A stretch of DNA of 64,000 bases from Buxus sempervirens (lineage: Eukaryota > Streptophyta > Magnoliopsida > Buxales > Buxaceae). The position numbers and the translations under genes were made by a program. The stretch lies in contig OX387193.1 in NCBI GenBank assembly GCA_947561395.2, positions 35,476,255-35,540,254 of the forward strand. Reading direction: 5' to 3'. The notes beneath the pieces are model-generated. The model searched no databases, was not told the origin of the DNA, and worked only from the letters and a program-made list of their open reading frames with translations. Position 1 is the first letter of the stretch, and each line of letters opens with the position of its first letter. Positions 2,046 to 31,066 of this stretch are shown here, in pieces.

Positions 2046-3541
2046 GCGTCATGTGCAGTATGTATTAAACACCCTAAATAACAAAGTGATAGGAATAAAT
2101 GTATGATTGTTTATAAATAGTTGACTTGTACACCTAAGCACAGATTTGCACCAATTTTGTTACACTGAATTGCTGATGATTTCTTATTATTTCAACTACC
2201 CGCATGTCATGGTTTTACCGAATGATAGTGGCATAAACTGTGTTTTCACCGAGCATGCATGTGTTGCTTACTGAAACATTCGTCTCATAAGTTGTGTTAT
2301 TGTTTTGATTTCAGAGTTGTCGACGTCCGGTGTGAAGGACCGGATTGGGGATAGGGGAAAGGACAAGGCACCAGGGTATAGAGAGGAGGATTTTTACCGA
2401 CCTACTTAGGACTTTACTTCGCTTATACATGATAGTTGTATATTTCTTTTGGACTTGTAAAACTTCTAACTGAGAGGAGTGATTAAAACCCATATTTTGT
2501 AATAACCATAGTAGTATTGCATTTAACTTTGAAGTCTACGGGACTTGTTATACTTCACATATATATATAGACACACTTTTGATACACACAAGCATGAACT
2601 ATTCCATCACTTGCACTTGTCAGGAAAAATTTTAAATTATCCGCATTTTATTGGGTCGAAAACCAACCTGTGACGACCAGGGTGTGCGCGCTTCGGGAAA
2701 TGCCGCATCGTGGGGCTCACGGATTCTCGTGCGTGCGTCCGGGAGGGTAAAACGGGAAATTGGAGTTGCCACCTCCTAATGGGGTGCAGGCCGACACCTG
2801 GGTGCCTAAGTTTGTCTACTGGGCTGGTCTACGGCTTGAGATTCTAGGTAAGGTCTCGGTTACGGTCCGGGGAAGTCCGTAGACACCCTGGTCCGCCCCG
2901 TCGATTGACGGGTCCCATAGAGTTTTCCTGGTTTGAGTCAAATTTGGTTTCTCACCCGATTTTCCTAATCCAACATGTAATTTGGGTTAAGTCTGGCGGG
3001 ACCTCCTGAATGGTGTGGGTCCCTTTATTTGATTTTATCTTGCTTATTTTGAAATTCAAGTTGGAATTTAAATGATTTTTTATGCAAAAGTGGGCCGGGT
3101 CAGTTAGTGGGCCCATTAGGCAGGCCCACAATGGTGGCCAAGTGATTTATGTTGAACTTATCTTCTTTAAGGGCTAGACCTCAGGCTTGGGGCCCATTAG
3201 TCTAGACTTGGACCGGGTAGTCCATGGTTCAGTGGGTCAGGTTGTTGGACCCTACCCAGTTGGGTTGATGGGCTTAGTGGGCCCGATAGGCCCATGCCGG
3301 CAGTCACGGCCAAACCATTCTTACACTAAGCCAGCATGCTTCATTTTTATTGGGCTTTGGTGGGCCTCATAGGGTTTGGTCCACTGGATTTGCATTAATT
3401 ATCTTGTTTATTTTAAAAGTGATCTTGGGCTGGGTGGTTTCCGATTGACTCGGAAACCCTGCTGGTTCATCTGGTTCGGCTTAAACATCATAACCAATCA
3501 GCAAACATCAAGAAATCAAGTTTTTGGAAAATTTCAAAAGC

Positions 3542-3645
3542 AACCGAAATTTAATTTCGGTTAAGCATGCAAGACAGCATAACCGAAATCTAATTTCGAT
3601 TATGCAATGTTTCTGGTTTGACCGAAATTAAATTTTGATTAAGCC
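3542..3645. repeat. Downstream palindrome cluster, AACCGAAA...TTTCGGTT type
   Basis: Three inverted-repeat units. The first (3542-3562) has perfect 10-bp arms (AACCGAAATT / AATTTCGGTT) around one base. The next two, near 3582 and 3620, are degraded copies. They lie about 1.4 kb downstream of the TATA box in the LTR's own orientation, at the same place as 24410-24560 in copy 2, which has a different motif. Confidence 0.75.
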
Positions 3646-4986
3646 AGGGAACACCCCTGACCGATTTGTGTTCTCGAGCAACCTGTCGAAAGCACTTTTT
3701 GGACAGAGAACCAATCCAAGGTATTTGTGAGCATGTATAGGGTCTCTGTGGGCCCCTGTGTGGGCCCACAGTGGTTCGAAGAGAGCCATTTAACTCCTCT
3801 TTTTGGGTTTTCCAAAATCAAAATAGCAGGGGGATGGGTGGGGGGTCCCTCCCTCCTTTCTTTTGTAATGAACATCATTTAAACAAGGATCAAGCATCCC
3901 TGTTTTGGTCTTTGGCTCTCAGAAAAAGGAGCAAACATCCATGCACATTGGAGGGTATCAAACCAAGACAAAACATATTTTTCAAAGCATGATTGGATTA
4001 TATGAGGAAATAGGCAAACCAAGAGTAAAAATCTGATTTTCTATGCATGCATCCCTCACCCAACAGCAACATACTTAAGGTAACTAAACATGCTTCTAGC
4101 TAACTTGGAGATGATCATGCACGTGAGGTTTCTACGAAACCTAATGAGGTGATCTCATGCACTAACAAACAGCACCTTTAAGGGAAGCTAAATCATACTG
4201 GGACATGCCAAGATACCAACCGAAACTTCATGCTCATGACTCCACAAAATATTAGCATGCATTATTTAACTAACTATGAACCCTTGCATGCATAGAGATC
4301 ACAACTACTTCATATGCATATCAAGATCTAGAAGATGGCTTAAGGATACTTAAAGAAGGAGAAAGAAGGGGGGTTACATAAAAGGGGTACATTAGATTTT
4401 CGCAGGAGGAACATGCTCCTCACCTTGGTAAAAACAAAACAAAATGGGAACCAGCCAAAACAGTGGTTGAATGGGGGTTGTAATAACCACTTTAAACCAA
4501 CCGAACCACTCTCCGTACTCTCTTGGAACTACCGATACCTCTTCTCTTACCATAGAAGGGTACTAATACACCAAATGACCATGTGAAGATGATAAAGAGA
4601 TGAGGGAATCACCCATGGTGAGTAAAAGATGATACAACAACCACTTGAATACCAACATGCTCCAAATGAGCTAAAATTTATATATGTTGAATAAAATCTA
4701 GTGGGGAACCATACTTTACAGTTAAAATCCACTTTGAAGGTGTGCTTGAGGCTCCTTGTGGCACCACAACTCCTGCACAGCACTTCCTCCTCTTCAAATG
4801 CTCCTCAAGGTCTCCTCCAAGTGGTGAGAATGAAGGAAAAGGGTGGAGAGGGGGTTTGGGAGGGGTTGGATTAGGGTTTTAGGTGTTTTGGAAGGGTGGA
4901 GAGGGTAGAGAGGAAAGGTACGAGCAGGGTGGGGTGGGACAAAAATTCGACAAGCAACCAACCCCCAGCCAAATGGCTGGAGTCCC

Positions 4987-4994
4987 TATTTATA
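4987..4994 (-). promoter_or_regulatory. TATA box of LTR copy 1
   Basis: TATAAATA on the minus strand, about 850 bp into the LTR. The homologous LTR copy has the identical octamer at 25818-25825. The palindrome cluster 5007-5245 begins 13 bp upstream of it. Confidence 0.7.
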
Positions 4995-5006
4995 GGCAGA
5001 AAAAAG

Positions 5007-5245
5007 GTAACCGAAATTAATTTTCGGTTACACTAATTTTTCAGTATAACCGAAAATTAGTTTCGGTTATACCAGCTTTTGTTTGTAACCGAAATAGAAT
5101 TTTGGTTAGATTTGCACTTGATTAGCAATCATTTCTTGTCAGGTACAGAGTCAAAGAATTTGTCGGGCGATTTTTGATTTTACTTTATGAAACGGAATTG
5201 AATTCCTGTCATACACAAGTTGCGTATAACCGAAATTTGATTCCG
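5007..5245. repeat. Promoter palindrome cluster, AACCGAAA...TTTCGGTT type
   Basis: Unit 5007-5031 has perfect 10-bp arms (GTAACCGAAA / TTTCGGTTAC). Unit 5044-5072 has perfect 12-bp arms (GTATAACCGAAA / TTTCGGTTATAC). Further degraded units start near 5085 and 5226. Spacers between arms are 5 bp in the two best units. The cluster sits immediately upstream of the TATA box. Confidence 0.85.
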
Positions 5246-7828
5246 GTTATTCTGACAATATTTTTGATATTTGCAGATTGCTCCCTGGATTTGACCGATT
5301 TGACTGATTTGACAATTTGGATAACTGCAGATTGCCCCCTGCGCAATTTTAGTTTAATCCCTGAGATATTTTGTAGATTTTGGATATTTACGGATTGCCC
5401 CTTGAGATATTTTTCTGCGTCTCTCGCCACGTGTGCAGTTCCTTTACCACGTGTGCAGTTTCCGACATTGTTGCCCGGAAACTTCAACTGATCATATCTC
5501 CTTCATCCAGACTCTGATTCGAGCAAACTCAGTTGCGTTAGAACCGTATCGGAGCCCTCTATCCATTGGCATAGGGCTAAGCACCTGGTTTAGGGTTTAG
5601 CAGAAAGTCAACTTTCGGCTCCCCCCAAGTTTGACCGACTTGTAAATCCTTCATCCGGGCTCCGATTCCAGCAAACTCAGTTGCATTAGAACCATGTCGG
5701 GATCCTCTATCCATTGAGATAAAGCAAGGTGGCCAATTATCACTTGATCAAAAAGTCAACTTTTCACCCCTAAGGGTTTGACTTTCCGTCTAGGGTTTAC
5801 ATTTCCGGCTCTTCCGAGAGCGCAAAAATGAGGTGCTTACACAGGGATAGGGGGATGCCTTGGAGAGGCATACCTGGTTCTGAGTCGTTACATTTTTACT
5901 CACTGTATAGTATTTCACTTCATGTTTTATTAATCTTTTAAAACATATAATTATGAGTCAAGCCATTTCTACTAGTGCATGGTACCTAATCCAAATAATA
6001 ATACTAGTCATTTCTTTGAAATAGTAACTCATGGTCTGTTGCCTCAAATCCACAGAATTATAGTGCTCAGACACACTGTGGAATGATCCAAATTAAGGCT
6101 GGATACCACCGTTGCCCACTTTTCTCCTAACCCAAGGGCTGGTTGACAAAACCATAGCCCATTTATTTCCCAATAATACAGGACCAGCTGGGTTAGACTA
6201 AAAAGCTCAATCATAAACATGATTGGGAGCAAATATCCTTGTGTGGCCATCCACAGGGTTTATGGTGTTTCAACCTAGGGGTACCTTTTTCACTTCCCCC
6301 ACTATTTTATCGTTTCTGGGCTCCAACCAGAGGCAACATGGGGATCATCCCTGAGGCCACATCCTGGCCACTAGACCAGTGCCACATCCATGAGACCACC
6401 CATGAGTCACTACTTCAGGTGATGCATACCAATAAATAAGATACACATTCAATTTACATAACCCAATACATTCCTTGAGTATGAATAAAATAATGTAACA
6501 TATATCCGTCCGTTCCTTGCAATATTAAATTATGCAAGCTCCTCACATATTCTGGTCATTGCTAAAAATTAAAATAAGAATGAGAAATAAGACCCATTGC
6601 AAGTATAGAATTTAACGAGTTATTCAAACAATTAAATAACCAATTTCTATCCATTTTTTTAGGTGGATTTGGATTTCAGATTCTTAATTTCCAGTCCATT
6701 CATAAGATTGATTTGGATCCCATGTTTACAACAACAACAAAATCAAACAAAGCTATCAAGTTACAAAGAACATAAATTTTCTTCCTATTCCAAACCCTAT
6801 AAGCTTTGAATACTGAATCGATTCCAATTCAATTTGAACACCTCAAAATCTTTATAAATTTGTCAAATAAGTAGAATAAACCTCTCTGAAAATTCATATT
6901 TTAGTTCATATATCATTACTAATAAAAACAAGACACTACATCTGTAAGACCCCAGTTTTGAGTAGAAAAAAATAATAATAATAAAAATAATAAACAATAT
7001 AAAATAGTAGGTAAAATAAAATATATGCAAAAGTATGAACACATGGATTTATGGACAGGCTTAATCAAAATTTGTTTATTGCTGGAGATTTGTGGTCATT
7101 AGTTGTCAAAGAGAATAAGCTTAAGTGGATGCGGGAAAATGTAGGGTTTTCAGTGGGCGAGCATGCACAGGATCAAGGCTTTTAAAAGGTTGTCGTGCGG
7201 CAATACGCATGGGAGCGTGTGGAAGGTATATATACTAAAGGGGAAATTAGGTTTTTGGTTTGGAATGCTCGCATCATATTTTTATAACTGAAGAGGTTTG
7301 GTGTTTTGCGGCTACTATGGCGATTAGGGTTTCTCTGGGAAGAGATGAGAACCGCGAGAGCTACGACTGGATTAGTGGAGTTGGAGATCCAGATTTCAGT
7401 GGGTTTTTCCTCTCGCGAGCAGGGGATCAGTTCGGCGACCTTCGCATCCACGCGCGCAGCCGGAAGTCATGCTCGGCCGGCTGTGGAATAAGCTTTTGTT
7501 TCTCGGATTAAGCGTATACTTGTGAGTAGCACTGATTTACAACTGGGGTTTTGTGTTTTATGTTTCTCTCGAGATTATTCTGATGCATGGGTTATATATA
7601 AAGTGATAGTGTGAGTTTTCTGGTTTTTCTGGTTTTCGGGAAATTACATGAACAGAGTCTCCGGATTTAATTTTATATTTGAAAATGAAAGTATTTAGAT
7701 TAATTCCAAATATGGTTGGGAAGTCTTCTGGGAGTATTAGGAGTGTAGTAGAACAATTACAGAGGTTCACAAACCGGCCAGTCATGTAGATCTCGAAATA
7801 ACAGAGAAATGAAAATCACAGGGGGTAT

Positions 7829-8100
7829 CCGCTCACCTCGCGCTCACCGGCGCTCACCTCAGAGGTAGGCGCCCCGTTAAAAACGACCCACCGCCGAGCT
7901 CGCGCCCGGCTGCCGCTCAGCTCGCGCTCAGCGGAAAACTATGCGCCCATCTCGCGCGAATCTCGCGCCCACCTCACGCCCATCTCGCGCTCAGCTCACG
8001 CTAACCTAGCGTCGGGTGAGCGGCAGGTCGATTTTACCCTTTTTCTTCACCGCCGACCGGCGCTCACCTCGCGCCCACCTCAGTAAGTGAGCGGCAGACC
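7829..8100 (+). repeat. GC-rich leader repeat block (GCGCTCACCTCGCGC-like)
   Basis: About fifteen overlapping copies of GCTCACCTC, GCGCCCACCTC, CTCGCGC and CCGCTCAGC words, interrupted once by a TTTTACCCTTTTTC stretch. It occupies the same LTR position as the unrelated blocks in the other LTRs of the window. Confidence 0.7.
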
Positions 8101-8689
8101 TATTTTGCTTATTAAATTGGAGATTTGAATTAACTAAGGGTATTTGGGTTACCTGAGGATTAAACCACTTCACTATTCACTTGTTTAGGAACCCTGGAAA
8201 TCTATTTTTGCCTAGGAAACTATTAGAGGAAAATTGAGTGAATTTCTTAAAAGCTTTCAAGTTGAGTTTAGGTTATTCATGAATATTATGCCGGATACCA
8301 AACCACTAAGAGTCACTAATTATACTTCCTCTGTTTTATACACTGTTTTGATTGAGGAGTTATTCTATTTCTGGTTTCACTGGTTTGGAAACTTTAAATC
8401 TATTGTAAAGATTTCCTTGGTATGAATGAATTGAGTTTTACTTTCATATGACTTGTGTTACGGAAAATGAGAAAATACTGAATGTACTTGAGGTACTGCT
8501 TGGTCCAGAGGGACAGGTGACGAATTGTGATGAGTTTTACATGATATGAAATGAATGGTTTTTCTTTGATATTGGTATTGAGATTATACGATGTTTTACT
8601 GTTTTGGTCTAGCTTGTCCTGGATCCAGAGTCTAAGCTTAGTAATGTGATGTTATTGTTGGTTGTTGAAATTGCATGGCCTTGTGTGTT

Positions 8690-9055
8690 GCCACGACCGG
8701 TGTAGAGCAGCCAGAAACCCTGAGTAGGCCTGGTTGTCAATGCAGAAACCCGGGGAGTAGGCCTGCATTGGATGACGAAACCCTGAGTAGGCCGTCATTT
8801 CAGAGTTTCCGAAACCCTGAGTAGGCCGGAACTGTGTACATGGAGGTGTGGAGTGTCTACTTGGCATGTTTAATTTATCAACTGAACAATAGTCATGACA
8901 TTGACCAATGTTGGTATTTGATTTTGTTTGACGTGATATGTTTTATTCGCTGGTTGTTGGTATTTATGGTTCATGGAATATTGTTTACCGATTATTGGGT
9001 ATTGTTCTTCCCGCCGGTGTAGAGCAGCCAGAAACCCTGAGTAGGCCGGATATAC
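8690..9055 (+). repeat. Dispersed units GAAACCCTGAGTAGGCC in LTR
   Basis: Six units of (C/A)(C/G)AAACCC(T/G)GAGTAGGCC at about 8710, 8745, 8778, 8812 and 9030, spaced irregularly. Related blocks lie on the minus strand at 58035-58190 (same AAACCC core) and on the plus strand at 63120-63570 (core mostly changed to ATACCC). Confidence 0.7.
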
Positions 9056-9624
9056 ATTTGGAGGCGTGGGCATGGTTATGAGAAGACTTGGTGTTATGTG
9101 ACATTGGTATATCTGGAATTATATCTTGAGATACAAAATTATGCTTATTTCCTATGTTGTTGCCAATTAATCATTATTTTATCGATATCTTCGGGATTGG
9201 AAACGGATTGTTATTGCTTGATTTACCTGATGGTTTTCCGCACTGATATGAATTGGATTATTGAAGTTTAGTCGGATTATTCGGAATATGCGTATTATCA
9301 TCATTGTACATGGTTATAATCGTGGCATGTTTTAGAACTGAAATAAATGTATTTGTGCATGCATGTGCTGCTCACTGGGATATTCATATCTCATTCCGTA
9401 TTGTTTTGTTTTGTTTTCAGCTGCTCCTGGAGAGGACGATACTTGCGGGTAGTTACTTGGTCATGTGAGTTTATTTTCGTTTGGGATTATTTAGCGCACT
9501 CTGTTATATAGTTATTGTTGTATTCATGTTTTTCCTTCACTCTGATATTGCGATCCTGTGTTTTATAATAACCTCTGGAGACGAGTTACGGGTTTTTCAT
9601 GTGACTCGGATCCGGGGCGTTACA

Positions 9625-12203
9625 ACATCTTACCTCATCCTAACCCGATAAACACAATCTTTGAAACTACATTAACAAATTCACAAGCAAATAAATTTCA
9701 GAATTCAGCAAGTATTTAGGGATTATAAAATCTCTAAAATTAATTAATTTCTCCTTTCAAATGATCAGATTAAAACCCTAATAAAATATAAGTCACATAA
9801 ACAATAAACAAGCATCAAATTGCACACATAACACTCTCTATTATTTTCTTTCCTCTCATTTGACATCTACAAAACCCAACCACATTAAGGAAGAGTATAA
9901 AAATGGGAAGAAAGCCAGCAAAATTGCTGTACCAGATGTCACTTCCCATTCCATGTACATAAAAATAAAAGAACTACTAGGATTTCCATACCGATGAAGT
10001 TTCCCCAATTTTTCTTGGCTTTTCCCCTTGATTGTCCTCCTTCTTCCTCTTCTTTTCTCCCTCTTTTTCTCCTCTCCTCTTGGCTTGGACGTGCTCCACT
10101 CTTCCTTAGATCTCTTATGGTCACAAAAAGTGACCATCCAACTTCTCTTATATGCTTTAACATGATACGGTGTGGTGTCACACCACCGAAACCCGTATTG
10201 TCACTTATTTTTGTGTTTTATTCTCATCTCACATCACATTAAACTAAAATTCATATATCAACATACCTACACATAAATACAACTTATAATAATATTTTCA
10301 CATTAAAATAATAATAAAAAAATTAATAAAATAAAAATAACATTACTTCCTTACTTTTTCATGCATAATGCATTATAACTTGTTATTTGAATGAATTCCA
10401 CTTTCTTTCTCTTTATCAATTGTTTTCTCAGGATAAAATTATTCCACAAACATATCTCAATATATATATCACATTCCCATCATAAATTTTAACCCTTTTA
10501 AAAATTTATTTTCCCATTAAAAATGACTAAAAATGCCATTTTATTGCATTTTAATATTATGGTTGTATAAAAAAATTAGGGATATTACATTGCAAAATTT
10601 TTCTGATACCATTTGTAATATCCCTAACTTTTATATGCAGTCATAATATTTGCCAAATATTAAGATTGTAGCAAATTGAAACAAAACTGCTTGGATAAGA
10701 TGAACATCAAAAAACAACTTTTCAAATAAAAGCTAGTTGTTTGTTACAGCATTTCACAGACACGATTAACCTGACAGCCCTGGTAGTTCATCTTGATACA
10801 ATAGTATAACAACTCTCAGATGCCTATAAAGATAGCTGAGTAAAATGGCACCAGAGGAAAACATGTCAAACACATTCAAGCTAAATTCAATGGTTTGGTT
10901 AACACAGATTGGTTGATTATCCAAGTAGGAAGACATCAAAGATCAAAGACCAGATTCACCCTTTGGTAGATAATGTTCAAAAACAGTGAATTCAAAGAGT
11001 CCAACTCCATTATAGCAGAGACTACAGAAGTCGATTCACTTCATGTAAACAATATTAGACATGTATTAGCATGTATAAAAACTCTTGATCTCTATTCACC
11101 AATGGATATTGAGGCAATTATAATGCAATCTATAAAAACAATGTCAGCATAAATCCCAAGCGAACCACCTAACCTGAACTATGATAGATGTTGTAGTATT
11201 TGGATTGACAGTCAAAAGGCAAATACCTTGTAATGTCCTCTTCAGTATCATCTAATTAGTATAAAAATATTGGATACTTTACTTTTTATGTCGTCTATCA
11301 CATAAGATTAAAACATGAATAAAATGTTTCCAAATAATTCACAAATTAGCTTAGAAAATCACCATAAAATGTATCGGAATCCCATGAATTTTTATTTTTT
11401 AGGAAAAGGGAAGGACAAACACAAAAAAGTATGCAGAGATCTCATGAGTTGAGTTCTTGTAGCCAAAATGAGTGGTGAAGTGAGCACTGGCTTCCATCAC
11501 CTAAAATAACAAATTTCAAATTACGGAACAACCATAGGCTAATAATAAAACAACAATTCAGATGTAAATCTACCATGTGATAATATCATATTAGCAACTG
11601 CAAAGTCAAGACCAGGACTTACCTTGGTGTCATAGAATTTGAGAACTCAGCTTCTTGTTTACATCAGGATTGAGACCTCCAATAGATATCAGCTCTCCAT
11701 ATAAATGGGTACTTGATTGAGTTTGTAGGGTGAAGCATGAGGTATGCTATCAATTGCTTCCGAAAGTATCCAATATTTTCTTGTTACATTGGAAATGAAA
11801 CAGTTGCTATAAAAAATGTGTAAATGTTAACCACATCAAGTTGCATATGAATATAAATACTTGCTTGCCCGAACCCTTTGGACAATCGATGTCCATCCCA
11901 ATAATCCATGAACTTCATTAAGAATACACTACAATCGATACTACACAACAAGTGGAAGGAATCAAGTCAAGGTAGACATGGCTAGTAATAGAAGTTACTT
12001 GTGTTAGTGGGAGTCAATGGGAGTAACCAAGTAAGCAACGTAAGGGCACAATTTAATATCACATGTATGCTCGATTACTTATGGTAACACATGAGTGATA
12101 AAGTAAAACAACTTATGCCCTACTTTGACGGGGCACAGACACAGGGTAAATTGGCCACTCCTGCACTCTCTTGTCACAACCAGGTTTAAGCTCCTCAAAG
12201 ACA
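9625..12203. other. Non-coding, decayed repeat sequence
   Basis: 9625-10589 continues the decayed minus-strand LTR. 10614-12203 is AT-rich and contains no reading frame or motif I can assign. The only clear structure is the pair of head-to-head LTR-like termini around 10590-10613. Confidence 0.4.
10590..10613 (-). other. 24-bp spacer between head-to-head LTR-like ends, with a PBS-like decamer
   Basis: TGTAATATCCCTAA occurs outward on both sides: minus strand ending at 10589, plus strand starting at 10614, with similarity for about 38 bp on each arm. The spacer read on the minus strand contains TGGTATCAGA, the initiator-Met tRNA primer-binding decamer used by many plant LTR elements. Either two LTR starts are head to head, or a minus-strand 5' LTR and PBS are joined directly to a 3' LTR after an internal deletion. 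Confidence 0.45.
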
Positions 12204-12837
12204 TCACCAAAAAATTTTGTCTGCATTGCCAATTGCACCATTCAATATCAAATTATATAATATATTGACACTATATAGTTCTTTCCATACCAATTTAGTT
12301 GAAATAGCACGATAATGATTAGGCCGTTTATTCGCCAAGGAATCTAACACTTCTACCCGCTTCTCCAACATGTTCAAAACAACAAGGAACCAATGGCTCC
12401 TCTTCAAAATGGGTAGGAAAACCTACCAAATGACAATCAAGTTGTACTAGCTGTTACTAATGATCTAAAAGAGAATAATAAAAAAATTCGCAGTTTATCA
12501 TACCATATGACACCGAAGCAAATTAAATCCTAGAACATCATGTGCAAAATGCCTTCGTACACCATCTGTGTAAAACCCCGACCCGGATTATATCATAATT
12601 ATTAAGATTAATTATCTAAAGTGTGATTATTAGACTAATTAAGTACTTGTGTTATGAAAATGAAGTAGATGTGGATTATACTTCAGGATTTAGGGAAATC
12701 AAATTGAACTTTAGTGAAGTTATTAAGGTAAGCTTAGTTAATGTTAGGTCTTAATTTCAATTCGCTGAGATACCCTCCAAGTAGTTTAGTGAATTGAAAA
12801 TCAAATTCTGAAAAATTAGAGTTAAGTGTACCTAAAG

Positions 12838-13852
12838 TACCCCATAAGAATACCGAAAATAACCACCTAAGTGTACCCAAGGTACCTCTCAAGTATACCT
12901 AAAATATCTCCTAAGAATACTCAAAGAACCTCTCAAGAATACCCAAGGTACCTCTCACGTGTACCTAAAGTATATACAAAGTATACCTAAAGTACACACA
13001 AGTATTACCCAAGGTACCACCAAAGTATACCTAAAGTACACACAAGTATCACCCAAGGTACCACCAAAGTATACTTAAAGTACACCCAAGTATTATCCAA
13101 GGTACCACCAAAGTATACCCAAGTATTACCCAAGGTACCACCAAAGTATACCTAAAGTACACCATGTATTACCCAAGGTACCACCTCAAGTGTTACTTAA
13201 AGTACCCCCAATTATACCCAAGGTACCCCACTTGTATAACCACCAAAGTATACCTAAGTATTACCCAAGGTACCACCAAAGTATACATAAAGTACACCTA
13301 TGTATTACCCAAGGTACCACCCAAGTGTTACTTAAAGCACCCCCAATTATACCTAAGGTACCCCACTTGTATACCTAAGGTACCCCCAATTATACCTAAG
13401 GTATTCCCTTGTATTGCCTAAGGTACCTCACTTGTATTGCCTAAAGTACCTCTTTGATTTACCCAAGGTACCCCCTTGATTCACCTAAGGTACCCCAATG
13501 TGTTTGCCTAAGGTATCCCTTTGCTTTACCTAAGGCACCCCACTGTTTTACTTAAAGTACCCCCTTGATTTATCTAAGGTACCCCATATGTTTGCCTAAG
13601 GTACCCCACTTGTATTATCTAAGGTACCCCTTGTTTTGCCTAAGGTACCCCCTGGTTTTACCTAAGGTACATCCCTTTATATAGCTAAGGTACCCCCTCT
13701 TGTATAACAAAGGTACCCCCGAACATCCCTAAAGTATACCCCTTGAAATAGTTAAGGAAAAAAACCCTTGAAACACCAAGGTACCCCCACTTAACACCAA
13801 GGTACCCCCTCAAATAACACTAAGGTACCCCCTGGCATACCTTAGGTACATC
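12838..13852 (+). repeat. About 1 kb array of AAGGTACCCC / AAAGTATACC units
   Basis: Some fifty tandem but irregularly spaced (15-25 bp) units centred on the palindrome GGTACC, usually as CCTAAGGTACCCCC, interleaved in the first half with AAAGTATACCTAAAGTACAC units. The array stops about 60 bp upstream of TATAAAAG at 13916, so it occupies the upstream promoter region of this LTR. Its translation is low-complexity and I do not regard it as coding. Confidence 0.85.
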
Positions 13853-13915
13853 CTAGGGTTTTAGATGAATAAAAGTTTTGTTTAGGGGTAGATTTGAAAG
13901 ACCAAAACTTGGGCA

Positions 13916-13923
13916 TATAAAAG
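13916..13923 (+). promoter_or_regulatory. TATA box of LTR 12569-16660
   Basis: TATAAAAG follows the GGTACC array. A purine-rich leader and a consensus-like splice donor (AATAG|GTAAGT, near 14089) follow within 180 bp. Confidence 0.6.
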
Positions 13924-14474
13924 GATGCCCTAATTTCAATTCTAAGTGTTTTTGAGAACACTCCCTCTTGTCTTGGACGTATAGAACAAGAAAGAAAGTT
14001 TTGGAAGCTTGCTTGAAAGCTTCAAGAGGAAGGAGAAGAAGGAGAAGGAGAGGAGAGCTTGAAGAGGAGTTGTGCATCTCCATTAATAGGTAAGTAGCAA
14101 ACCCTTTAAAACAAAATGTATTACAAAATTCTTATTCTCTCTCTCTAGGGTTTGATCTATTTTGAAGAAACGATCTTGCATGTTGGTATTTGCTTCTAAA
14201 ACTCATATGTTTTGGTTGTATAACAATTTTGCTTAGTTTTCTATTGATTTACCATGGATTTGCAACCTCTATTAACTATATTTCTAATTAGGGTTTGAGT
14301 TTGATATTTTGATTGATGTTTTATGTGTTGGATTTGTGTTCATGTTGATTGGGATGATTATCTGTTTTGGGGAGGTTTTTTTAATTGTTGGGATGATTTA
14401 TGATATCCCATTTGGTGTTGGAAATGTTGGAAATGATTTATATGAGTTTTGTGTTAAAAATAGCAAAAATTATT

Positions 14475-14780
14475 TGAAAACCCGACCTGGCGATTAATCC
14501 TGAAAATTAGCGATTAATCCTGAGCCAAAACCCCAAAAACCAGTCTCTGTTATTCTAATCACGACTCAAGATTAGCCTGGGCAATTAATCTAGAGCCTGG
14601 ACGCGCGAACGTCCAAAGGGGATGCACGCACATTAGGCATGTTTTAACCTTTAACGCACGAACGTCCATCCTCCGCGCACGAACGTTGGCTTCGCTTAAC
14701 CTCCACACGCGAACGTCCATCTTCAACGCGCGCACGTCAAGGCTAATCGCCCCTGGGCGATTAATCCAGGGGCTAATCGT
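14475..14780 (+). repeat. Leader repeat block (CGCGCGAACGTCC and GCGATTAATCC units)
   Basis: Outer units GCGATTAATCC / GGGCGATTAATCCAGGGG enclose an inner group of ACGCGCGAACGTCC-like units (five or six, 14600-14740). The block ends about 100 bp before the conserved stretch starting at 14880. In the LTR at 60784 the same conserved stretch is preceded by an unrelated block (61885-62010). Confidence 0.7.
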
Positions 14781-15414
14781 GGACCCTGTTTTTGACAGTT
14801 TTCATCCTTTTCTTCCCCGACCCTTTCCCAAACAACCTAAGCCTTTTACAAAGCACCCTTATTACATGAAAAACATTTAAGTAAATGTCATGTGTATTTA
14901 TTGCTCAATTTACTTAAATCTTTACATGTAAATAGGGTTTTACCCCCCATTTGGAACCAATAAAAATACTTCTAAGGCCCAATTCTCAACCAATAAAAAG
15001 TCAACTTTCCAGTTCATGCCTAAATTTCCAGTTTTCCCGATTTTCATTAAAGACCACTTTTTGAGTTTGATACCCAAATGAGTGATTCAAAAGCCCATAA
15101 AATTCTAGAAGATTTTTTTACCCTCCATTAGACTACAACCAGAAATTGAGCCCGAAACTCCTTGTGGATTTGTCTAAAAAAATTATATACTCAAAAGTCA
15201 ACATTTTTAACCATACTTAGAATATTTTTGAGGTCCAAAACTTTTTGTCTCGGAATCCATTGATTTTTGGTATGGTGACTTATTTGGGAATCCTAAAACT
15301 ATCCCACTCATCCAAAATGTATTTTGAGGATTTTATGATATTCGTTTTGATCGATTCGGATTTATGAAAGCAAGGTTGAAAAACTCTTATATGATTTGAC
15401 AAGGCTTTTGGCTT

Positions 15415-15830
15415 ATTGTTTTATTGGTGGTGGATGGGAAATTCCACTTGGCTTCGGTTGATTTGATAGTGGATGGTGAATTCCACTTGGCTTATGATGT
15501 GATTTGGCGGTGGATGGGGAATTCCACCTGGCTTTTGTTTAAGCACTGGTTTTACTCATTGATTTGATTGGTTTGTTTGGAATTATGAGTCGTCTAATTG
15601 GACATTGTTCTTAGTGTGGATCCATAGTGAGTCTAGTCTGTGTGTTGATGTTGGCTTGTTAATTTTAATTTCTTTATCCATATAGCATTCCACTGTGGGG
15701 AATCAGTGCGGCCTTCTTGGGGAATAGAGGGCTGCAACAACCCCCCGTCGCAGGAACCGGTGGGAGTCCTTGTGATTCATCTAGCAGTGGGTGGAGAATC
15801 CCACTTTGCTTTGATCCTTAGTTAGGTTGT
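15415..15830 (+). repeat. Second LTR repeat block (GTGGATGG...TTCCAC units)
   Basis: Three units of GTGGATGGNGAATTCCAC(T/C)TGGCTT, whose arms GTGGA/TCCAC are inverted, at 15428-15535. Looser units with CCACTGTGGGGAATC and GTGGAGAATCCCAC lie at 15685-15815. Confidence 0.6.
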
Positions 15831-16660
15831 CACTTGCCAGCCCATACGTGGGTGCTCCGCTTGCTGAGATGCCCTAGCTAGGCTTCTCTCTGTAAGTCGT
15901 GTAGGTGGCAAATGGATAGTGGTCATTAATCTAATTTAGAGACACGCTAACCACGAGTCCTAACAAGACATGCTTACTGTATTTGATCGCATTTGTTGAT
16001 TTGATTTCATGTGTTACCTGATTAAGATATTTGACTTGGAATTACACTTTATATTTGATTGAGATGTTTTGGTTTACATTTGGTACTTTATATTGTGAAT
16101 ATTATCATGATGTTATAAAACTGCATAAACTGTTTCTCTACATGCATGTTTACTGCTTACTGGGACTTTAAGTCTCACGCGTGTTTTGTTTTACCGAATT
16201 TGTTTTCAGATCCACTTGGTGAGCCACGTACCGGGACAGATATTGAGGGTGAGTTTAAGTGCAGGCCAGAGGACTACTACCACCCCTAGTAGGACTCTTT
16301 TTATGATGTTGTATTTTGTTTTGGGAAATTGTAAATGGGATGTAAATAATATTATTGGACTTATACTTTTAGAAGATATCTTTTGTATACGTCTGTATAT
16401 TTGGGAAAGCTGTTGTGAATATTTTAGTTGCCTTAGTTGTATCTTGTTCACGCAGACATCATATATTTTGGAGATATTACACAGATGACCTTTTTTTATA
16501 TGGAAAATTTTTATTCCATGCTTCTTTAGTCATGCACTCTGATGATTACTTTGTAATTGCCCAGGATTAATTGTGTTAATCAGGTTCTATTGGGCCCATA
16601 AGTAGGTCTCGAGGATGAGTCGGTGTCGTGATAGGGCAGACCCGGATCCGGGGTGCTACA

Positions 16661-19190: not shown

Positions 19191-20144
19191 CCGAATAATC
19201 CATTTAAACCAAAATATTTTGTTTTAAAACCCTTTTTCATAATATTGCATCAAAATCCTTTTATAATCTTAAATTTAGTAAAATTGTCGAATTTCGGTTA
19301 AACCGGTAACTTCAGGTGTAAAATCTCAGAATTAATTCCTATTATCAATATAGATATGCTCAACTCATTTAAAACTGTAAAATGTAGGCTTTCCCCACAA
19401 GAATTATTTTCAAGTTACTTATTCTAGAAATGACCCTTAAATACTCCTACTAGCACATGAAATTCCTTTGTTTGCACTCCACATCTTTCCACCCTTAAGC
19501 TAAACTCAATTCTGCTATTATTCCTTAATATGATTCCCAAGCAACCTTAAATGTGTTTTTGAACCTAAAAGAGACAATCCTATAGTCTTTACTTTGTAAC
19601 TCCAATGCTCCTAACTCACCTATACCAAATCTGAAAAATACCATGCTTATTAAATTGACCTCTCTTTAAACACCTAATTCAGTATCTCCTTATTCATTCC
19701 AGTCCCTGGTAATCATCAATAATTAAACCTTTAAGTATTTCCTAGTTGAGTTTTTAAAATGTAAAATGTATATGTGCTGGAGAAATTTCAGCACTCTAAC
19801 AATTCACAAAAACTTAACTAGAACAGTTTCTGATTTCTTTACTTGACACCAAGAATGCTCCTAATACCAGTATTTCCTAATCCCCCAAAGTCCCTTAATA
19901 ACTTCTCATTAAACTCTCTAAATAACCGCCACAAGAATACTTAAACCAAGACAAGGTGCTGGTAGTAAGCTGGGAGCCAACCACTACAACACTCGGTATC
20001 CACACAATCCTTTTGTTTTCAAACTTATGGATTCAAATGTGCTTCCAATTCAGCTCTTCTAATCATACAAAGCCTTCATATAACCCCTAATTAAGTCCCA
20101 TAAGAACTGTATGTTATTAACAATTTCAAATATTAAGATGAGTG

Positions 20145-20400
20145 AGCTGGTGCCAACCTCTGGAGAGGTAGGCGCCAGTCAGCAGATGGTCCATTTCTCT
20201 AATAACCCAGTAGATAAACTAATAATTCTTCAACTGTATTACACGCACTTAATTAAATAACCTAAACTAATATTATAGAATTTCACATTTATAAAATATC
20301 ATATACTAAACAGCCGCTTATTACTTTGAAAGAGGAGCTGGCGCTGACCTCTGAGGAGGTTGGCGCCAACCAGATGAGCTCAGCGCCAAGTCCTTTTTCT
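20145..20400 (-). repeat. Leader repeat block (GGCGCCAACC...GGTTGGCGCC type)
   Basis: Two main groups, GGTGCCAACCTCTGG...GAGGTAGGCGCC at 20150-20180 and GGCGCTGACCTCTGAGGAGGTTGGCGCC at 20338-20368, followed by a GCTCAGCGCC unit. Each group is a long inverted repeat. The same motif recurs at 61885-62010. Confidence 0.7.
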
Positions 20401-21489
20401 CCAACTCAATTGCGACTAGTGAAAAATCACCAAGACTGACTGGAAAATTTTCATTCGAATTACTCCTAGAATCATCTTAACCCTTTCAATGGCCTATTTA
20501 ACCTGTTTCGAATTTAATTAAACTACCAACCACCACAGTACAAAGTTTGCCGCTCATGCCCTTTTCTTCGACTAAATCCTTCTTCAGTAGACAAAATTTA
20601 AATTCTACATGCATTAACATAATTTTCCTTATTATCTCAGGTTTAGCAAATTAGTAATTATACATGCATCCAACAACATGCTTTGGAATATAATTGAGGC
20701 ATTTTTATTTCAGATCATGTCTAAGTGCCAAAATTCAGTATAACAGGGATCGACTACATGCTGATTTAAACCACACCAAACTTCCAGTTAAATCATTCAA
20801 AACAAAACGAAGTTATGCTACTCACCTGATAGAAACTAATTCACAATTCAGAACCTCCTAATTCTTCCTGAATTCCTTGACATTTGCCTCCCGAATTGAA
20901 TTCACGAACAGAACCTGAACAGGTCTCTGCAAAAAACCAGGTACTGATCAGATCTACTTGGATCTGCATTTCCTTTCATAAATGCCACTAAACATCACCT
21001 ATTAAACTAATCCTTGCCTGAGATTTGAATTAAAACACTGAATTCGCAGCTCCAGAACAGATTTGAACACTGCCGCAGAAGTTCTTCAGTCTCTCTCGAA
21101 CAGTCTTCAAACAACTCCAATTTGAACTCTCAGATCAACAATTTCTCCAGCCTGATTCTTCAAACCCTAGATCACCACCTCCTCTCTCAGATCTCAATTC
21201 AGTGCTCGAATGCCAAACCAAACCAACAAACGAAATTCTTCCCCCCTTTATAGTTGCCGCCTTCGAGCAACTTAAATCACGATCCCCCGCATAGACACTC
21301 CACAGAAACTCTACACCAGCAGCCTAGTTTAGCTTAATACACCATTTGCCACATCACCAACCAACTTTAACCTCCTAAATAAAATTAATTTTTCCCTCAC
21401 CTTAGTAATTATAATTCTCCAAGTTGGTTCACCCGAAAACCTTGATCAAACCCTTCAATTCTCCAACCCTGCATAATTTTTCGAAAAGC

Positions 21490-21615
21490 CTTATTTAATT
21501 ACTAAAACAATAAATTTTAATTTTATTAAAATTATTTAATTACTAAAACAATAAATTTTAATTTTATTAAAATTATTTAATTACTAAAACAATAAATTTT
21601 AATTTTATTAAAATT
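21490..21615. repeat. Three tandem copies of a 42-bp AT-rich unit
   Basis: TTATTTAATTACTAAAACAA followed by TAAATTTTAATTTTATTAAAA is repeated three times almost without change, about 12 bp inside the LTR's 5' end. Near-identity of the copies implies recent amplification. The unit contains TTTTAATTTTATTAAAA, itself nearly self-complementary. Confidence 0.85.
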
Positions 21616-21627
21616 TGGGATTTTACA

Positions 21628-23201
21628 GTGTACAATAAGAAAGACTTGTAGAGGGAGATTTTCAAGTTTCCAGTTGAGAAAAAGGGAATGAAAGTGATGG
21701 ATTGTGTTGATGGGTCCTAAAATGGCTCTTAGATAACTCCCTCACAAGTAGATTTTAGGCATTGTAACTCATACATACATCATTATGTCCATACATGAGG
21801 TTGTTTTTTTGTTCTTTAAAGCTTTCAGGTTAAAATCTTAGAAAAACCTAATTCAATGGTTTTATGTTATTCAGTGCCCATGTTACCACTGACGATCAGT
21901 ACAAATGTGTCTAATATCCGACACTTTGTTTTATTTTTTAATTAAAACAGCATTTAAATTAGGGAAATGTTATGAGAAAGAATCAAATTCGAGAAATGAA
22001 AAAAACAATAATTTAAATTAAATTAACAAGTAGAGAGGGAGGGGATGAGGAACAAGGCAACTTGGCAACTTTCTTTTCAAAGGTTCAAATGTTCAAGCAG
22101 GTGCACTCGTAACCCCATCAAGCTTGTTAAATTGAAAAGGCAAGATTAATCTTGTTCATGTTAGATAAATGTGTTGCAAACAATAGAAGACAATATTAAC
22201 AATTAGGATCTTTATTGATTCAGCAAATGAGGAGTAACAAGACTAAGTGTCTTTATTTAGAACCTCACCTCGCATAGGTAACATTGGGGATTAGGGCGGA
22301 TCAGGGCCATCCAAAGTCCATGTGTACATCAAAACTATTCTATACTAATGGTTAGAAAATTAACAAGTGTTGTTTCTAGTAATTTACACTAACCAAATAC
22401 AAGAAACTCATCAATATTAACTCTTATCTGAAAAGCGCATATTTCTCAAAGGATTAAATTTTTCAAAGATCTTGATTACATAACAAACTAAATAATAAAA
22501 TAAGAAGAAGCAATAATCTATTAGAGAAAACCAAATCATAGATCACAATGATTCAATACTGTAAGTACACAAATGTTCTCACATAATAGCTTACTGATGT
22601 TCTCACATAATAGCTTACTGGAGTAACTCAACGTTATTTGCCCAAACTCAACTAATTATCTACTAAGAATTAAGAGGGTTTGGACACAAGAACATTACGA
22701 CTAACGACTGCATTACTGGAATTAAGAGGGTATGGTCACAAAAACATTACGACTACATTACCCTTTTAATCCTCTTAATTCTCTGCTAAGAATTAAGTGG
22801 GTATGGCAACTTTCTTTTGAGTTATTTCAATAACTAAACGTTATAGGAATAACTCAATGTTATTTTCCCTACATACACATTGAACGCCAACTTGGTTCTG
22901 CTCCATCCACAACAGAATTAATGGAAACTCATAGAAACAATACCTTTGTACACAAAAACATGCCTCTTTTTCATGTAGGCAACATTGGGGATTAGGGCTT
23001 TTTGATCAAATAACAAAATTTATTAAATTAAAATCTACACACCTATTAATGGCGACGAAATCAGCAGCAGCTGACGACAGCTGACGGAAATGAGAACCCC
23101 AACAGCGCAAGTGGATGGCAGCGATATTCCTGACGGCAATGCCTCATGGACGACAAGATCAACCACAACGACAGTGAAGGATGAAAACGAATAGCAACGG
23201 G
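21628..23201. other. Unassigned sequence between insertions
   Basis: No convincing gene. Two short direct repetitions are visible: a 26-bp tandem duplication (GTTCTCACATAATAGCTTACT, 22573-22620) and related segments containing GAATTAAGAGGGT (22668 and 22720). A 19-bp phrase, AACATTGGGGATTAGGGC, occurs at 22280 and 22981, perhaps bracketing an old insertion. 23041-23201 is GC-richer and may be decayed coding sequence. It continues after the ACGGG target at 54453. Confidence 0.4.
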
Positions 23202-24409
23202 TGTAACGCCCCGAATCTGAGTTACGTAGTGAAACCGTAACTCTTCTTCGAAGGTTAATTTCTCACACAAGATCGATATATCAAAGTGAAGGAAAACACG
23301 AATAAAGCAATAACTACATAATCAGAGTCAACTACAATCCCAAACTGAATAGAAAAATACTGTATCTGTGCGCGCGTGGGAAACACGGCACGGGGGGAAA
23401 TCGAAGTCGCCACCGCCTGATGGGGTGCAGGCAGACACCTGGGTGCCTAACCTTGTATATTAGGGCTTTTGGTCTGCGGCTTGAGATTCTAAGTCGATTC
23501 TCGGTTGTGGTCTGGGGAAGTCCGTAGACACCCCAGTCCACCCCGTTGGATGACGGGTCCCGTGGGTTCCCTGATTTGAGTCAGCTTTCTCTTTGGTCTT
23601 CACCCGATTTCTAATCCAGCATGCGATTTTAGATTAAGTCTTTGTCGGGACCACCTGAGTTGGTGTGGGTACCTTTAGTTGATTTTATCTTTGCATATCT
23701 TAAGTGGTCTGAGTCTGGTTGGGTGGGCCCCGTTGGAAGGCCCACGGTGTCCTTGGTGGGCTTGGGTGAGCCCGCGTACCCTTGGTGGGCCTCTGTCTAG
23801 CCCTAGGAGGCCCTGTGGGTTTTGGATAATGAGTTGATTTTACTTAGGTTTGGTTTTGAAGATTAAGTGTTTTCTATGCAAAAGGTGGGCCGGATTGGTT
23901 TGTGGGCCCCTTAGGTGGGCCCACATGGTGGCCAAGTAATTTTGTTTTATCCTTTTAATTTGCCACAATGGGCCGGTCACTGGGCTTGGGGCCCGTGATC
24001 CAGGCTTTGGGGCTGGAAAGCCCAATTCTTCGAAGTTTAGGGCTTGCACCCTAACTTGGTTCGGTTAGCGGGCTTTGGCGGGCCCGACAGGCCCTAGCCC
24101 TTGGTCTCGGCCAAACCAGGCAATTCACACATCCATTCACATATCCAAGGCGCGGGTGGGCCGCATTGGGTTTGGCCCGCCCGGTTCACATGGTTCATTT
24201 TACTTGAGTTATTTAAATGGCATGCTTTGGTGTTTATTTGGGCTTGGTGGGCCCCGTTGGAAGGCCCACTAGTGATCCAAGTTGGACCGGCGGTCCATGT
24301 ACCAAGTTGGGTTTCCGGGTGGCCCGGAAACCCTATCGGTTCAATTGGTTTAGCTTAGATCATCACAAAATTCGGCAAGGCATCATAATACACAAAAAAT
24401 CACATTCTG

Positions 24410-24560
24410 GTGTGTATCCGGCAACTCAGGCCGGACACGAATAGGTCTCAGGTTATCCGGCCATCATGTCTGGACATGCACAAACCCCAGGTTATCCGGC
24501 CTAAGTTTCCGGATACGCCTGAGTCACAGGTGATCCGGCCTGAGTTGCCGGATCACACCA
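24410..24560. repeat. Downstream palindrome cluster, ATCCGGCC...GGCCGGAT type
   Basis: Four units at 24412, 24452, 24491 and 24531, each of the form (G)(G/T)(T/G)ATCCGGC(C/A)-N6-7-(G)CCGGA-AC. The best is 24531-24557 (GTGATCCGGC / GCCGGATCAC). This is the position of the AACCGAAA cluster 3542-3645 in copy 1. Confidence 0.85.
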
Positions 24561-25632
24561 AAATGGCCATTTTTCGGGTTTTTGGCAGTTGGGGGGACTT
24601 CCAGGGGTCCCTAGGAAGCTTCTACAGGTCATGTGGGCCCCTGGGTGGGCCCACATTTGTTCAGATTTGGGGGGAGGAGCCTCATTTGGCTTCTCTCTTG
24701 GGTTTCTCAGCAAGGCAAAGGGGAAGGGGGAGTGGGCTGTTGTTCCTTTCCCTTTTTTTTTGAGCCGCCCCCAGCAGTTAAACAGGGACCGATGCATCCC
24801 TGTTTAGGCCTTCTGACTCCACACGAAATAACTAGCTGAAAGGGATTCCTATCCAACATAATGTGACAAAGCCAAGCACATAATGCAAGAATCAATTGAA
24901 GCACAACAAAGATAGGCAAAAAAGAGATGCAAAGCATGCCTACATGCATGCTCGAAATTTCATATAGACAAAACACAAACCCAATGAGCGGCAACAGATC
25001 ATGCACGGTGGGTGGGTGCTTCTCTAGTGCTCAAAAAAATACATGCATGCATACAAAGCATGACTCATCCGGTAGCAACAAAAGACATCGAGACAAGACC
25101 TTACGGAGTGCTTGCGACTTCGAAACATGCATCACCAAGACCTAGAACTGCGCATTTTCAGACAGTCATGAGTAAGGAAACAGAACTTCATGGAGAAGGG
25201 AAGAGGAGTGGGTGGTTACATAGGGGTACACGGGAAGTTAGTAAGAGGGAACAGGCTCCCTTTCAAAGCAAGCACACATAGGCCCAAGCAGTGGCCGAAA
25301 ATGGAGCCACCAAATCCTCTCCCCCTCTCCTAAGGTCGTGCATGGGGTCTCCATTACCCTTGGAGACCGCCATGCTACCAAGGGGTGGAGGAGAAACGCA
25401 TGCAGACATTTTTTTAAAACAGACATGAGCTTGGTAAAGAAGAAAATCACAGAATTATCATAGAAAACTCTCTATTTGACATATGTATAACAAAATGTAC
25501 CAAGGAGTCTCACCTGATGATCTCCAGATGCTTAGGCAATGTGGGAACCCCTCCTGGAGGTGAGACAGTGGCTGCAGCTTCCTCCTTTGTAGCACCAACA
25601 GCAGCAAACTCTCTTTGTCTCCGTAGGAAAGT

Positions 25633-25668
<36 letters not shown>
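25633..25668 (+). repeat. Homopolymer of 36 G
   Basis: An uninterrupted G36 run inside the LTR, downstream of its TATA box, so the transcript would contain poly-C. Such a run is hard to sequence and its length may be inexact. Copy 1 has no equivalent. Confidence 0.8.
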
Positions 25669-25669
<1 letters not shown>

Positions 25670-25817
25670 GAAGAAAACCAGGGGTTGAATGGCCTTGGGA
25701 TGGAGTAGAAGGGCTATGGAGGGCAAAAGGAGTGGATGTGCAGGTGGGAAGAGGTGGGAGGAGCAAGCTCAAGACAGCCAAAAATAAGCCAACCCCGGAA
25801 ATGAGTTGCTGGTTTGC

Positions 25818-25825
25818 TATTTATA
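25818..25825 (-). promoter_or_regulatory. TATA box of LTR copy 2
   Basis: TATAAATA on the minus strand, equivalent to 4987-4994 in copy 1. The palindrome cluster starts 11 bp upstream. Confidence 0.7.
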
Positions 25826-25835
25826 GAAAACTTAA

Positions 25836-26090
25836 TGTATCCGGCAACTCAGGCCGGATACACTAAGGCCTCCCCTTATCCGGCCTTCATGGCCGGATAC
25901 ACTAGTCTTCCTTTTTATCCGGTCTTCAAGTCCGGATACAAAACATAATCATTTGAAAATTAAATGCCGCCGCGAATTTGTCGGGGCGATCGGCGCGAAT
26001 CTTGCGCGAAAATCTTCTTGTATCCGGCCTTCAAGTCCGGATATACACAATGGTCTGTGTATCCGGTATATTGGACCGGATACAAATCAA
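25836..26090. repeat. Promoter palindrome cluster, TATCCGGCC...GGCCGGATA type
   Basis: Units: 25836-25862 (perfect 10-bp arms TGTATCCGGC / GCCGGATACA, 7-bp spacer), 25877-25899 (perfect 9-bp arms TATCCGGCC / GGCCGGATA, 5-bp spacer), 25914-25940, 26019-26045 and 26058-26084. The cluster abuts the TATA box, exactly as the AACCGAAA cluster does in copy 1. Confidence 0.9.
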
Positions 26091-27079
26091 AAAATTACGG
26101 ATTTGCCCTTCGACTTGACCGATTCGACCGATTTGACGCTTTTGGATATCTACGGATTGGCCCGTACGAATTTTTGATATTTAAGATTTAGTCCCTAAGA
26201 TATTTTTCTGCGCTTGTAACCACATGTGCAGTTCTTGCGCCACGTGTGCAGTTTCCAGTTTTGCTGCTCGAAAAACTTTGACAGCTCATATCTCATTCAT
26301 CCGAACTCCGATTTTAGCAAACTTAATTGCGTTAGACTCGTATCGGAGCCCTCTATTTAATGACATAGGGCTAAACACTTCGCACGGGGTTCGAGGGAAA
26401 AGTCAACTTTTGGCCTTCCTTTAAGTTTGACTGCCCTTAGAACCTTTATTCGGACTCCGATTTCTTGCAAACCCAGTTGCGTTAGAATCGTGTCGAGATT
26501 CTTTATCCAAGGATATAGAGCAAGGTACTTGGCACGGAATTCGAGGAAAAGTCAACTCTCGGCTCTTCCTTAAGTTTGACCGCCCGCAGAACCTTCATCC
26601 GGACTCCGATTCCTGCAAACCCAGTTGCGTTGGATTCGTGTCGGGATTCTCCATTCATTGAGATAAAGCAAGGTGGCCAAATTTTATCTGATTAGAAGGC
26701 CAATTTTTCACCCCTTAGGGTTTGACTTTTTAGCCGGGTTTTGCATTTCTGGCTTTTCTGGAGCGCAAAAATAAGGTGCTTACAGTATCACAACTCTCAA
26801 CTCACATAAACCAAGCATCTACCCACCAGTATCGTCATCTCCCAAGATCTGAAAACAAAACAAAACAAAACGGATGGGATACAAATATCTCAGCAAGTAG
26901 CACATGCATGCTCAAATACATTTTATATAGTTCTAAAACATGAATCAAATTTAAAACATAAATTGATGGCGATAACACGAATAATCCGGATAATCTAGCA
27001 AAATCCAGCAAATATAAATCCAAACAACAATATCGATTTCAAACAATATATTATAGTGGGACTCATGAGATTTGACCAC

Positions 27080-30758: not shown

Positions 30759-30868
30759 TTGCCCGTATTTCATTCACGGGCCGGTCGCCGCCCGAGATCT
30801 CTCTACGGTCAGGCGCGCCCGTGGAAACTATACGGTCACCATTGGACCGTAGTGCATATACGGTCACT
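30759..30868. repeat. ACGGGC/GCCCGT palindrome cluster in the 5' LTR promoter
   Basis: GCCCGT...ACGGGC (30761-30781), then CGCCCG, TACGGTC, GCGCCCGT, TACGGTCACC...GGACCGTA and TACGGTC. It lies 200-300 bp upstream of the TATA box. The 3' LTR has the same cluster at about 50179-50287. Confidence 0.75.
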
Positions 30869-31066
30869 AAAGACACGTGCGAGTTTTGTCCTTCTCTCGA
30901 TTTCCGAGCTTTATCTTTAGTCCAATATATCTTTAAATGAGCGAATTACGTATTTTATTCGCTGAAGCCACCTTGGTTGGCTATGGATGGGCATTATCTC
31001 CAATTTTCACTCCATCCTGAGGATCAGGATATATCCTTCTGGACCAGCCTTGCCCCTGGGTGTGTC

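Follow-up and report, generated by a model that had tools for sequence, protein, structure and literature searches.

The stretch of DNA analysed here, called the window, comprises 64,000 nucleotides of the forward strand of Buxus sempervirens (assembly GCA_947561395.2, contig OX387193.1, positions 35,476,255-35,540,254). It contains two solo long terminal repeats (LTRs) and one complete Tat-type Ty3/Gypsy retrotransposon, all of which carry arrays of a short palindrome, CCG-N11-CGG. The CGG core of its half-site is kept in all three elements, and the flanking bases switch together from family to family. A half-site is written here as inner bases-CGG-outer bases, with minus positions on the inner side and plus positions on the outer side. 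Four classes of half-site are used, C1 (copy 1 family), C2 (copy 2 family), D (intermediate) and F (the complete element).

Two solo LTRs and a complete element

The two solo LTRs have the following parts.

2683..5841, minus strand: solo LTR copy 1, class C1; target duplication CAGGG at 2678-2682 and 5842-5846
5008..5250, minus strand: promoter array of copy 1; units at 5011, 5050, 5089 and 5230; half-site TTT-CGG-TTA
4986..4995, minus strand: TATA box CTATAAATAG of copy 1, read in the sequence
3541..3642, minus strand: downstream array of copy 1; units at 3544, 3583 and 3622; 39-bp step; the last two with altered core bases
23367..26784, minus strand: solo LTR copy 2, class C2; target duplication GTATC at 23362-23366 and 26785-26789
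25838..26082, minus strand: promoter array of copy 2; units at 25841, 25880, 25919, 26024 and 26063; half-site mostly GGC-CGG-ATA
25817..25826, minus strand: TATA box of copy 2, read in the sequence
24415..24554, minus strand: downstream array of copy 2; units at 24418, 24457, 24496 and 24535; 39-bp step

A first-pass annotation of the window had placed homologous solo LTRs at 2683-5841 and 23367-26784, and the target duplications CAGGG and GTATC, together with homologous ends, confirm them. Alignment of the two copies gives 79% identity across 312 bp of one end and 76-77% across 358 and 345 bp of the other, and on the plus strand both start with TGTGCGCGC and finish with GCTTACA. Their sense strand is taken as minus because CTATAAATAG lies on that strand in both and because gag-pol runs with the LTRs in a full-length relative of copy 2 at C10:12683588-12705412. 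The annotation had also stated that position, spacing and symmetry are kept between the copies, which agrees with the geometry of the arrays. The step from unit to unit is 39 bp in 4 of 5 cases in copy 1 and in 6 of 7 in copy 2, the exceptions being 141 and 105 bp, and the 16-bp spacers are alike in length but differ in sequence. Some neighbouring spacers of copy 2 have common endings.

The complete element, which belongs to class F, has the following parts.

30658..51895, plus strand: complete Tat-type Ty3/Gypsy element; LTRs 98.8% identical; target duplication CCTTG
30760..30866, plus strand: LTR promoter array; four units at steps of 27-29 bp; repeated in the 3' LTR from 50184
31066..31075, plus strand: TATA box of the LTR, read in the sequence, about 200 bp past the array
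33701..33835, plus strand: 5' leader array; five units at 28-bp steps
34934..42281, plus strand: gag-pol, with gag, G-patch, reverse transcriptase, two ribonuclease H (RNase H) domains and integrase
43202..45064, minus strand: antisense gene B, in two pieces; DUF7745, which is like the plant mobile domain (PMD); C-terminal part coiled-coil-looking by eye
45128..45261, minus strand: gene B array; five units (four intact cores), upstream of the antisense DUF7745 gene
45475..48345, minus strand: antisense gene A, interrupted; PMD, then parts that by eye are coiled-coil-looking and RG-rich
49627..49732, minus strand: gene A array; four units at steps of 27-28 bp, upstream of the antisense PMD gene

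The domain order, RVT_1, RT_RNaseH, RVT_3 and rve, is that of a Tat-type Ty3/Gypsy element, a dual RNase H being a mark of Tat. The domain scan matched gene A to PMD with E 3e-17 and gene B to DUF7745 with E 5e-15, plus PMD with 5e-7, below its cut-off. One class of half-site, mostly YA-CGG-KC, occurs at four places in this element: in the LTR, in the 5' leader and ahead of both antisense genes. Four arrays, those of both solo LTRs, of the LTR of the complete element and of gene B, lie upstream of a TATA box; TATATAAA stands at 45106-45099, about 25 bp downstream of the gene B array. In the solo LTRs and in the complete element, the array before the TATA box is accompanied by a second array past it, about 1.4 kb on in the former and 2.7 kb on in the latter.

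In the window, 37 CCG-N11-CGG sites were counted against 1.83 expected from 100 shuffles, and no other spacer from 0 to 30 gave more than 9 sites. Of the 37, 35 fall within the three elements (6 in LTR 1, 8 in LTR 2 and 21 in the complete element), leaving 2 in the other 36 kb. Three of these 35, at 2739 and 5462 in LTR 1 and at 49423, are outside the arrays. In 100 dinucleotide shuffles the highest count reached at any spacer from 0 to 30 was 3 for LTR 1 and 5 for LTR 2, compared with the 6 and 8 observed. Among 34 tabulated units, from which the 3' LTR repeats of the complete element are left out, 29 have an intact core; those at 5089, 3583, 3622, 24457 and 45242 deviate by C-to-T or G-to-A, changes that would be expected from the decay of methylated sites.

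Several other features were noticed in these elements. Two more palindromes, GGTTTCCG..CGGAAACC and TGGGCCC..GGGCCCA, sit at equivalent places of both solo LTRs (3436-3458 / 24309-24333 and 3746-3771 / 24631-24656). Unlike the array motif, they are unchanged in sequence, and they are perhaps RNA structures. A block AATTTGTCGGG(G)CGAT, common to both solo LTRs (5157-5171 and 25975-25990), lies within the gap of the promoter array. Copy 2 has a run of 36 G at 25633-25668, and a like run is found in a related element (L061, as a glycine run in its open reading frame (ORF) 1381-1842). The 5' leader of the complete element contains tandem repeats of a GGGCCTCTGAAAGCCTTTGAATTTCAGA-like unit at 33986-34798.

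Half-site classes in the window and in related loci

The half-site is TTT-CGG-TTA in copy 1 (n=14), mostly GGC-CGG-ATA in copy 2 (n=18) and mostly nYA-CGG-KCA in the complete element (n=36). CGG is kept, and the bases at -1 and at +3 to +5 are specific to the family. At -1, copy 1 has T in 13 of 14 half-sites, copy 2 has C in all 18 and the complete element has A in 34 of 36; position +3 is T in 14/14, A in 18/18 and G or T in 32/36, respectively. When each cluster in turn was left out and its units were assigned on their non-core bases alone, all 34 units went to their own family. The first-pass annotation had described the LTRs, the geometry and a motif shared by both clusters of a copy, and these parts of its observation stand, since each cluster of copies 1 and 2 has the half-site of its own copy. 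It had also held that the motif is wholly replaced between the copies. This we reject: the units share the form CCG-N11-CGG, TAnCCG...CGGnTA is common to TAACCGAAA...TTTCGGTTA and TATCCGGCC...GGCCGGATA, and it is flanking bases that change.

Genome searches with the two solo LTRs gave 18,470 (copy 1) and 15,592 (copy 2) first-look candidates, of which the best 40 each were scored and 30 each fetched; the fetched loci are the nearest relatives of the LTRs and no survey of the genome. Loci L002-L030 belong to the copy-1 family and L032-L060 to the copy-2 family, L001 and L031 being the window's own loci. The recount covers 56 loci, omitting L054 and L060 (which overlap L056 and L048), L001, L031 and L061-L063. 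The 29 loci of the copy-1 family have 122 sites with N11 and 37 with the next-best spacer; the 27 of the copy-2 family have 199, with 116 for the next best, N24. Neighbouring intact units in the arrays are exactly 39 bp apart in 99 of 187 steps. There are 89 arrays with at least two intact units, which by majority are C2 (50), C1 (34), D (3) and F (2).

The annotation had proposed that cluster motifs be tabulated across genomic LTRs, and in such a table most cluster pairs share a class. Of 45 pairs of groups lying 1.0-1.75 kb from each other, 38 agree (40 of 47 with the overlapping loci still included); pairs are defined by distance, and the agreeing 38 may include some outside a single LTR. 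The seven disagreeing pairs are attributed to two elements: those at L012, L016, L029, L039 and L050 involve two LTRs by BLAST, and at L045 and L056 the odd group is outside the LTR match. F-type CCG-N11-CGG units at L032:278, L045:4274 and L056:906 adjoin LTRs of the copy-2 family and come from neighbouring elements.

A tree was made from 43 LTR starts of the fetched loci and the window, including both LTRs of the C10 element, with L021 entered twice. The motif class is coherent on this tree. The 27 C1 rows cluster together with L010, which is without an intact unit, and the 9 C2 rows make one group. Two D-type LTRs (GGT-CGG-ATA and like) and the mixed L029 branch beside these. LTR groups of differing class are on average 77-83% alike. 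A more distant LTR, found at L016:307 and at its start 63-70% identical to the rest, carries a half-site of F type ahead of the TATA box, seen on one intact unit. Class D has T at -1 as in C1 and A at +3 as in C2, and therefore the switch looks stepwise between elements and concerted within them; its order is tentative because class D has few members. A gradual continuum of motifs, which the annotation had set against its own reading, is in this sense partly found between elements, class D standing between copies 1 and 2, but not between the clusters of one element. At L029:2541, two LTR starts of the same group face away from each other as an inverted pair.

Elsewhere in the window, a further probable mobile element (about 12571-16481) holds a long array of CCTAAGGTACC/CCTAAAGTACC-like units at 12826-13845. 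A duplicated region (52010-53196 / 54594-55751), pieces of which are 86-91% identical, contains AGCTACCAGCG..TGGTAGCT and similar short palindromes at 52951-53057 and 55596-55617.

Candidate factors and rival explanations

The full-length relative of copy 2 on C10 has arrays in both LTRs and one stray unit inside. Its reverse transcriptase comes before its integrase, in the orientation of the LTRs. Two sense ORFs between its 5' LTR and gag match DUF7745 (E 9e-10 and 4e-8) and share 34% and 35% identity with the two gene B pieces, and an open piece beside them (L062:8741-8998) is coiled-coil-looking by eye. The longest antisense ORFs from pol to the 3' LTR (113 and 123 aa; L061:3294-5457) have no notable Pfam match. 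Both full-length elements read thus have a DUF7745 gene, which is antisense with its own array in class F and in sense without one in the copy-2 family. For the copy-1 family, no full-length element was noticed among the matches listed. Gene B exon homologues at E 0.001 were absent among 521 candidates of the protein collection, and no solved structure was found to match the two antisense exons.

The palindromes are probably two-fold symmetric binding sites of a dimeric DNA-binding protein, set in promoter arrays of fixed geometry in Tat-type retrotransposons. A conserved surface of the factor would contact CGG, and a changeable surface the neighbouring bases, and the factor would activate or un-silence its own family. 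The leading candidate is the co-encoded DUF7745/PMD-like protein, which may be the factor, although we name it tentatively. The finding of DUF7745 in both full-length elements raises the odds of an element-encoded factor and of the binding-site reading as a whole and lowers those of a host factor, and the coiled-coil-looking part could let such a protein dimerise. Extra genes that face the other way would have arrays of their own, and for an extra gene in sense before gag the LTR arrays would suffice, a pattern of orientation and arrays that comes from one element each and may carry this meaning.

Several observations weigh against this reading. The two DUF7745 genes differ in place and orientation, the Pfam title of DUF7745 names no function, and two elements cannot show coevolution of motif and protein. 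Structure models of both antisense exons are poor (predicted local distance difference test scores of 43 and 42), with no fold evidence for DNA binding. No TATA box was seen after the gene A array. At least one half-site of another class occurs in 24 of the 89 arrays (30 of 552 half-sites, 44 more being unclassed), often as GTC-CGG-TCA in one copy-2 promoter unit or with T for C at -1. The two halves of a unit covary at C1 +6 (0.70 vs 0.37 shuffled), C2 +5 (0.82 vs 0.72) and C2 -5 (0.44 vs 0.30), and RNA folding of eight array stretches, two of which are only part of an array, beats 200 shuffles with z from -3.8 to -9.8.

The last two points would favour RNA or cruciform hairpins, in which the transcribed units form stem-loops that serve packaging or set off silencing by small RNAs, and small RNAs are drawn to maize Sirevirus palindromes (Bousios 2016, via PMC10760457). 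The inner variable positions, however, pair about as shuffled halves do. Left and right match at C2 -3 in 0.56 against 0.56 shuffled and at C2 -2 in 0.60 against 0.53, a value reached by 26 of 500 shuffles; at C2 -4 and C1 +7 the matching runs the opposite way. Units at the same place of related LTRs are not independent in these comparisons. In the complete element only a short stretch would pair, about CCGT/ACGG with a further base or two, enclosing a loop of some nine bases. Hairpins need neither a fixed N11 nor fixed steps, and an array also stands before the TATA box of an antisense gene. The annotation had offered binding sites or RNA hairpins. The constant N11, the 39- and 28-bp geometry, the kept CGG, the concerted flanks, the third element and the 56 loci argue for the former, and hairpins, for all their better folding, are improbable.

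Sites of host factors are a closer rival, though an unlikely one. Families would then tune to different members of a CGG-recognising host factor family, with no factor encoded by the element. Solo LTRs, like many copies, can do without a factor gene of their own, and the Sirevirus palindromes mostly match stress-factor sites in PLACE (PMC2829016). Such tuning does not readily account for one class at all arrays of an element, for classes that differ among LTR groups so alike in one genome, or for the DUF7745 protein encoded by both full-length elements. No plant factor is known to us to have a CCG-N11-CGG site, although no search was aimed at one, and this also counts against it. Finally, the units could be without function and homogenised within a copy by tandem duplication and gene conversion. 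VANDAL arrays also change jointly through tandem repeat turnover (PMC5735166), and the shared endings of some copy 2 spacers would fit. Yet spacer sequences differ while spacer length and the N11 core stay, and core and N11 recur in the distant LTR at L016 and upstream of antisense genes, which makes a lack of function very improbable indeed.

Comparison with known systems

The binding-site part of the first-pass interpretation is retained, but its statement that nothing of the kind is described for plant LTRs was wrong. The Sirevirus motifs are the closest known system. The repeated-motif boxes of these Ty1/Copia elements (Bousios et al. 2010, PMC2829016) have a CGG-CCG core in 12 of the 13 palindromes of Table 3; they are alike within an element and unlike between elements, and lie upstream of the LTR TATA box and of the ENV-like gene where present. 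The arrays described here share with them an element-specific CGG-core palindrome upstream of the TATA box and of an extra gene. They differ in that the intervening length varies by element in Sireviruses, whereas CCG-N11-CGG is constant here in all classes seen, and in that the complete element has the Gypsy domain order. A second array downstream of the TATA box and arrays at antisense PMD and DUF7745 genes are also differences from the Sirevirus boxes as that source presents them.

For concerted change, the VANC arrays of VANDAL transposons are closest (PMC5735166). There too, family-specific noncoding motif arrays change in concert, and the binding protein is encoded by the element; the VANC motifs are of 8-9 bp and arrayed in one orientation, in contrast to the palindromic CCG-N11-CGG. 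By analogy with VANC, a parallel that the annotation had drawn, it is possible, though we put this hypothesis below the naming of the candidate itself, that Tat elements recognise themselves, a DUF7745/PMD-like dimer acting on the CCG-N11-CGG arrays of its own family and allowing escape from silencing without cross-activation. The gene of the factor would be antisense after pol with its own array, or in sense before gag and driven by the LTR, and the Sirevirus CGG palindromes would be a separate or a shared version. A DUF1985-type protein goes with the VANC system (PMC5735166). No DUF1985 match was seen in the antisense pieces scanned, nor in either DUF7745 piece of the copy-2-family element.

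Ogre-type Tat elements have an extra ORF before gag, and the copy-2-family element, with its sense extra gene between LTR and gag, is like them in this arrangement. The Retand lineage of Tat has antisense TRP28 genes between pol and the 3' LTR, for which a DNA-binding regulatory role is proposed (Vicient 2025, PMC11963269). The complete element has antisense genes at the same place, but they encode PMD and DUF7745, and the LTRs here are of 1.8 and 3.2-3.4 kb compared with 0.3-1.2 kb in that source. The antisense pieces scanned, which are not every exon, match PMD and DUF7745 only and not TRP28 (PF04195), and in the Retand paper 'palindrom' occurs twice, both within a cited title. PMD-A clades are encoded by Gypsy elements (Ikeda 2017, PMC5418596), a likeness to the complete element. 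The host PMD proteins MAIN and MAIL1 act in silencing, and a promoter motif is linked to them without proof of binding (PMC5418596, PMC7156037); in the parts of both papers used here, cis arrays are not described for the elements. Listings of open-access papers on LTR promoters of plants and on Tat, Ogre, Retand and Athila elements gave none that describes such palindromes, and no paper was listed for DUF7745 or for anti-silencing with antisense ORFs.

The unexplained extra genes of Tat-type elements gain a concrete candidate target, and the role of PMD and DUF7745 becomes a question for binding assays. Several families in a single genome that retain the core and exchange the flanks offer a natural experiment on the evolution of DNA-binding specificity. 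From the comparison, family-specific arrays of CGG palindromes would seem to be in use in Copia and Gypsy elements alike. Arrays of CGG-CCG palindromes were known from Sireviruses; new here are the Gypsy hosts, the constant N11, the array past the TATA box and the arrays at antisense genes.

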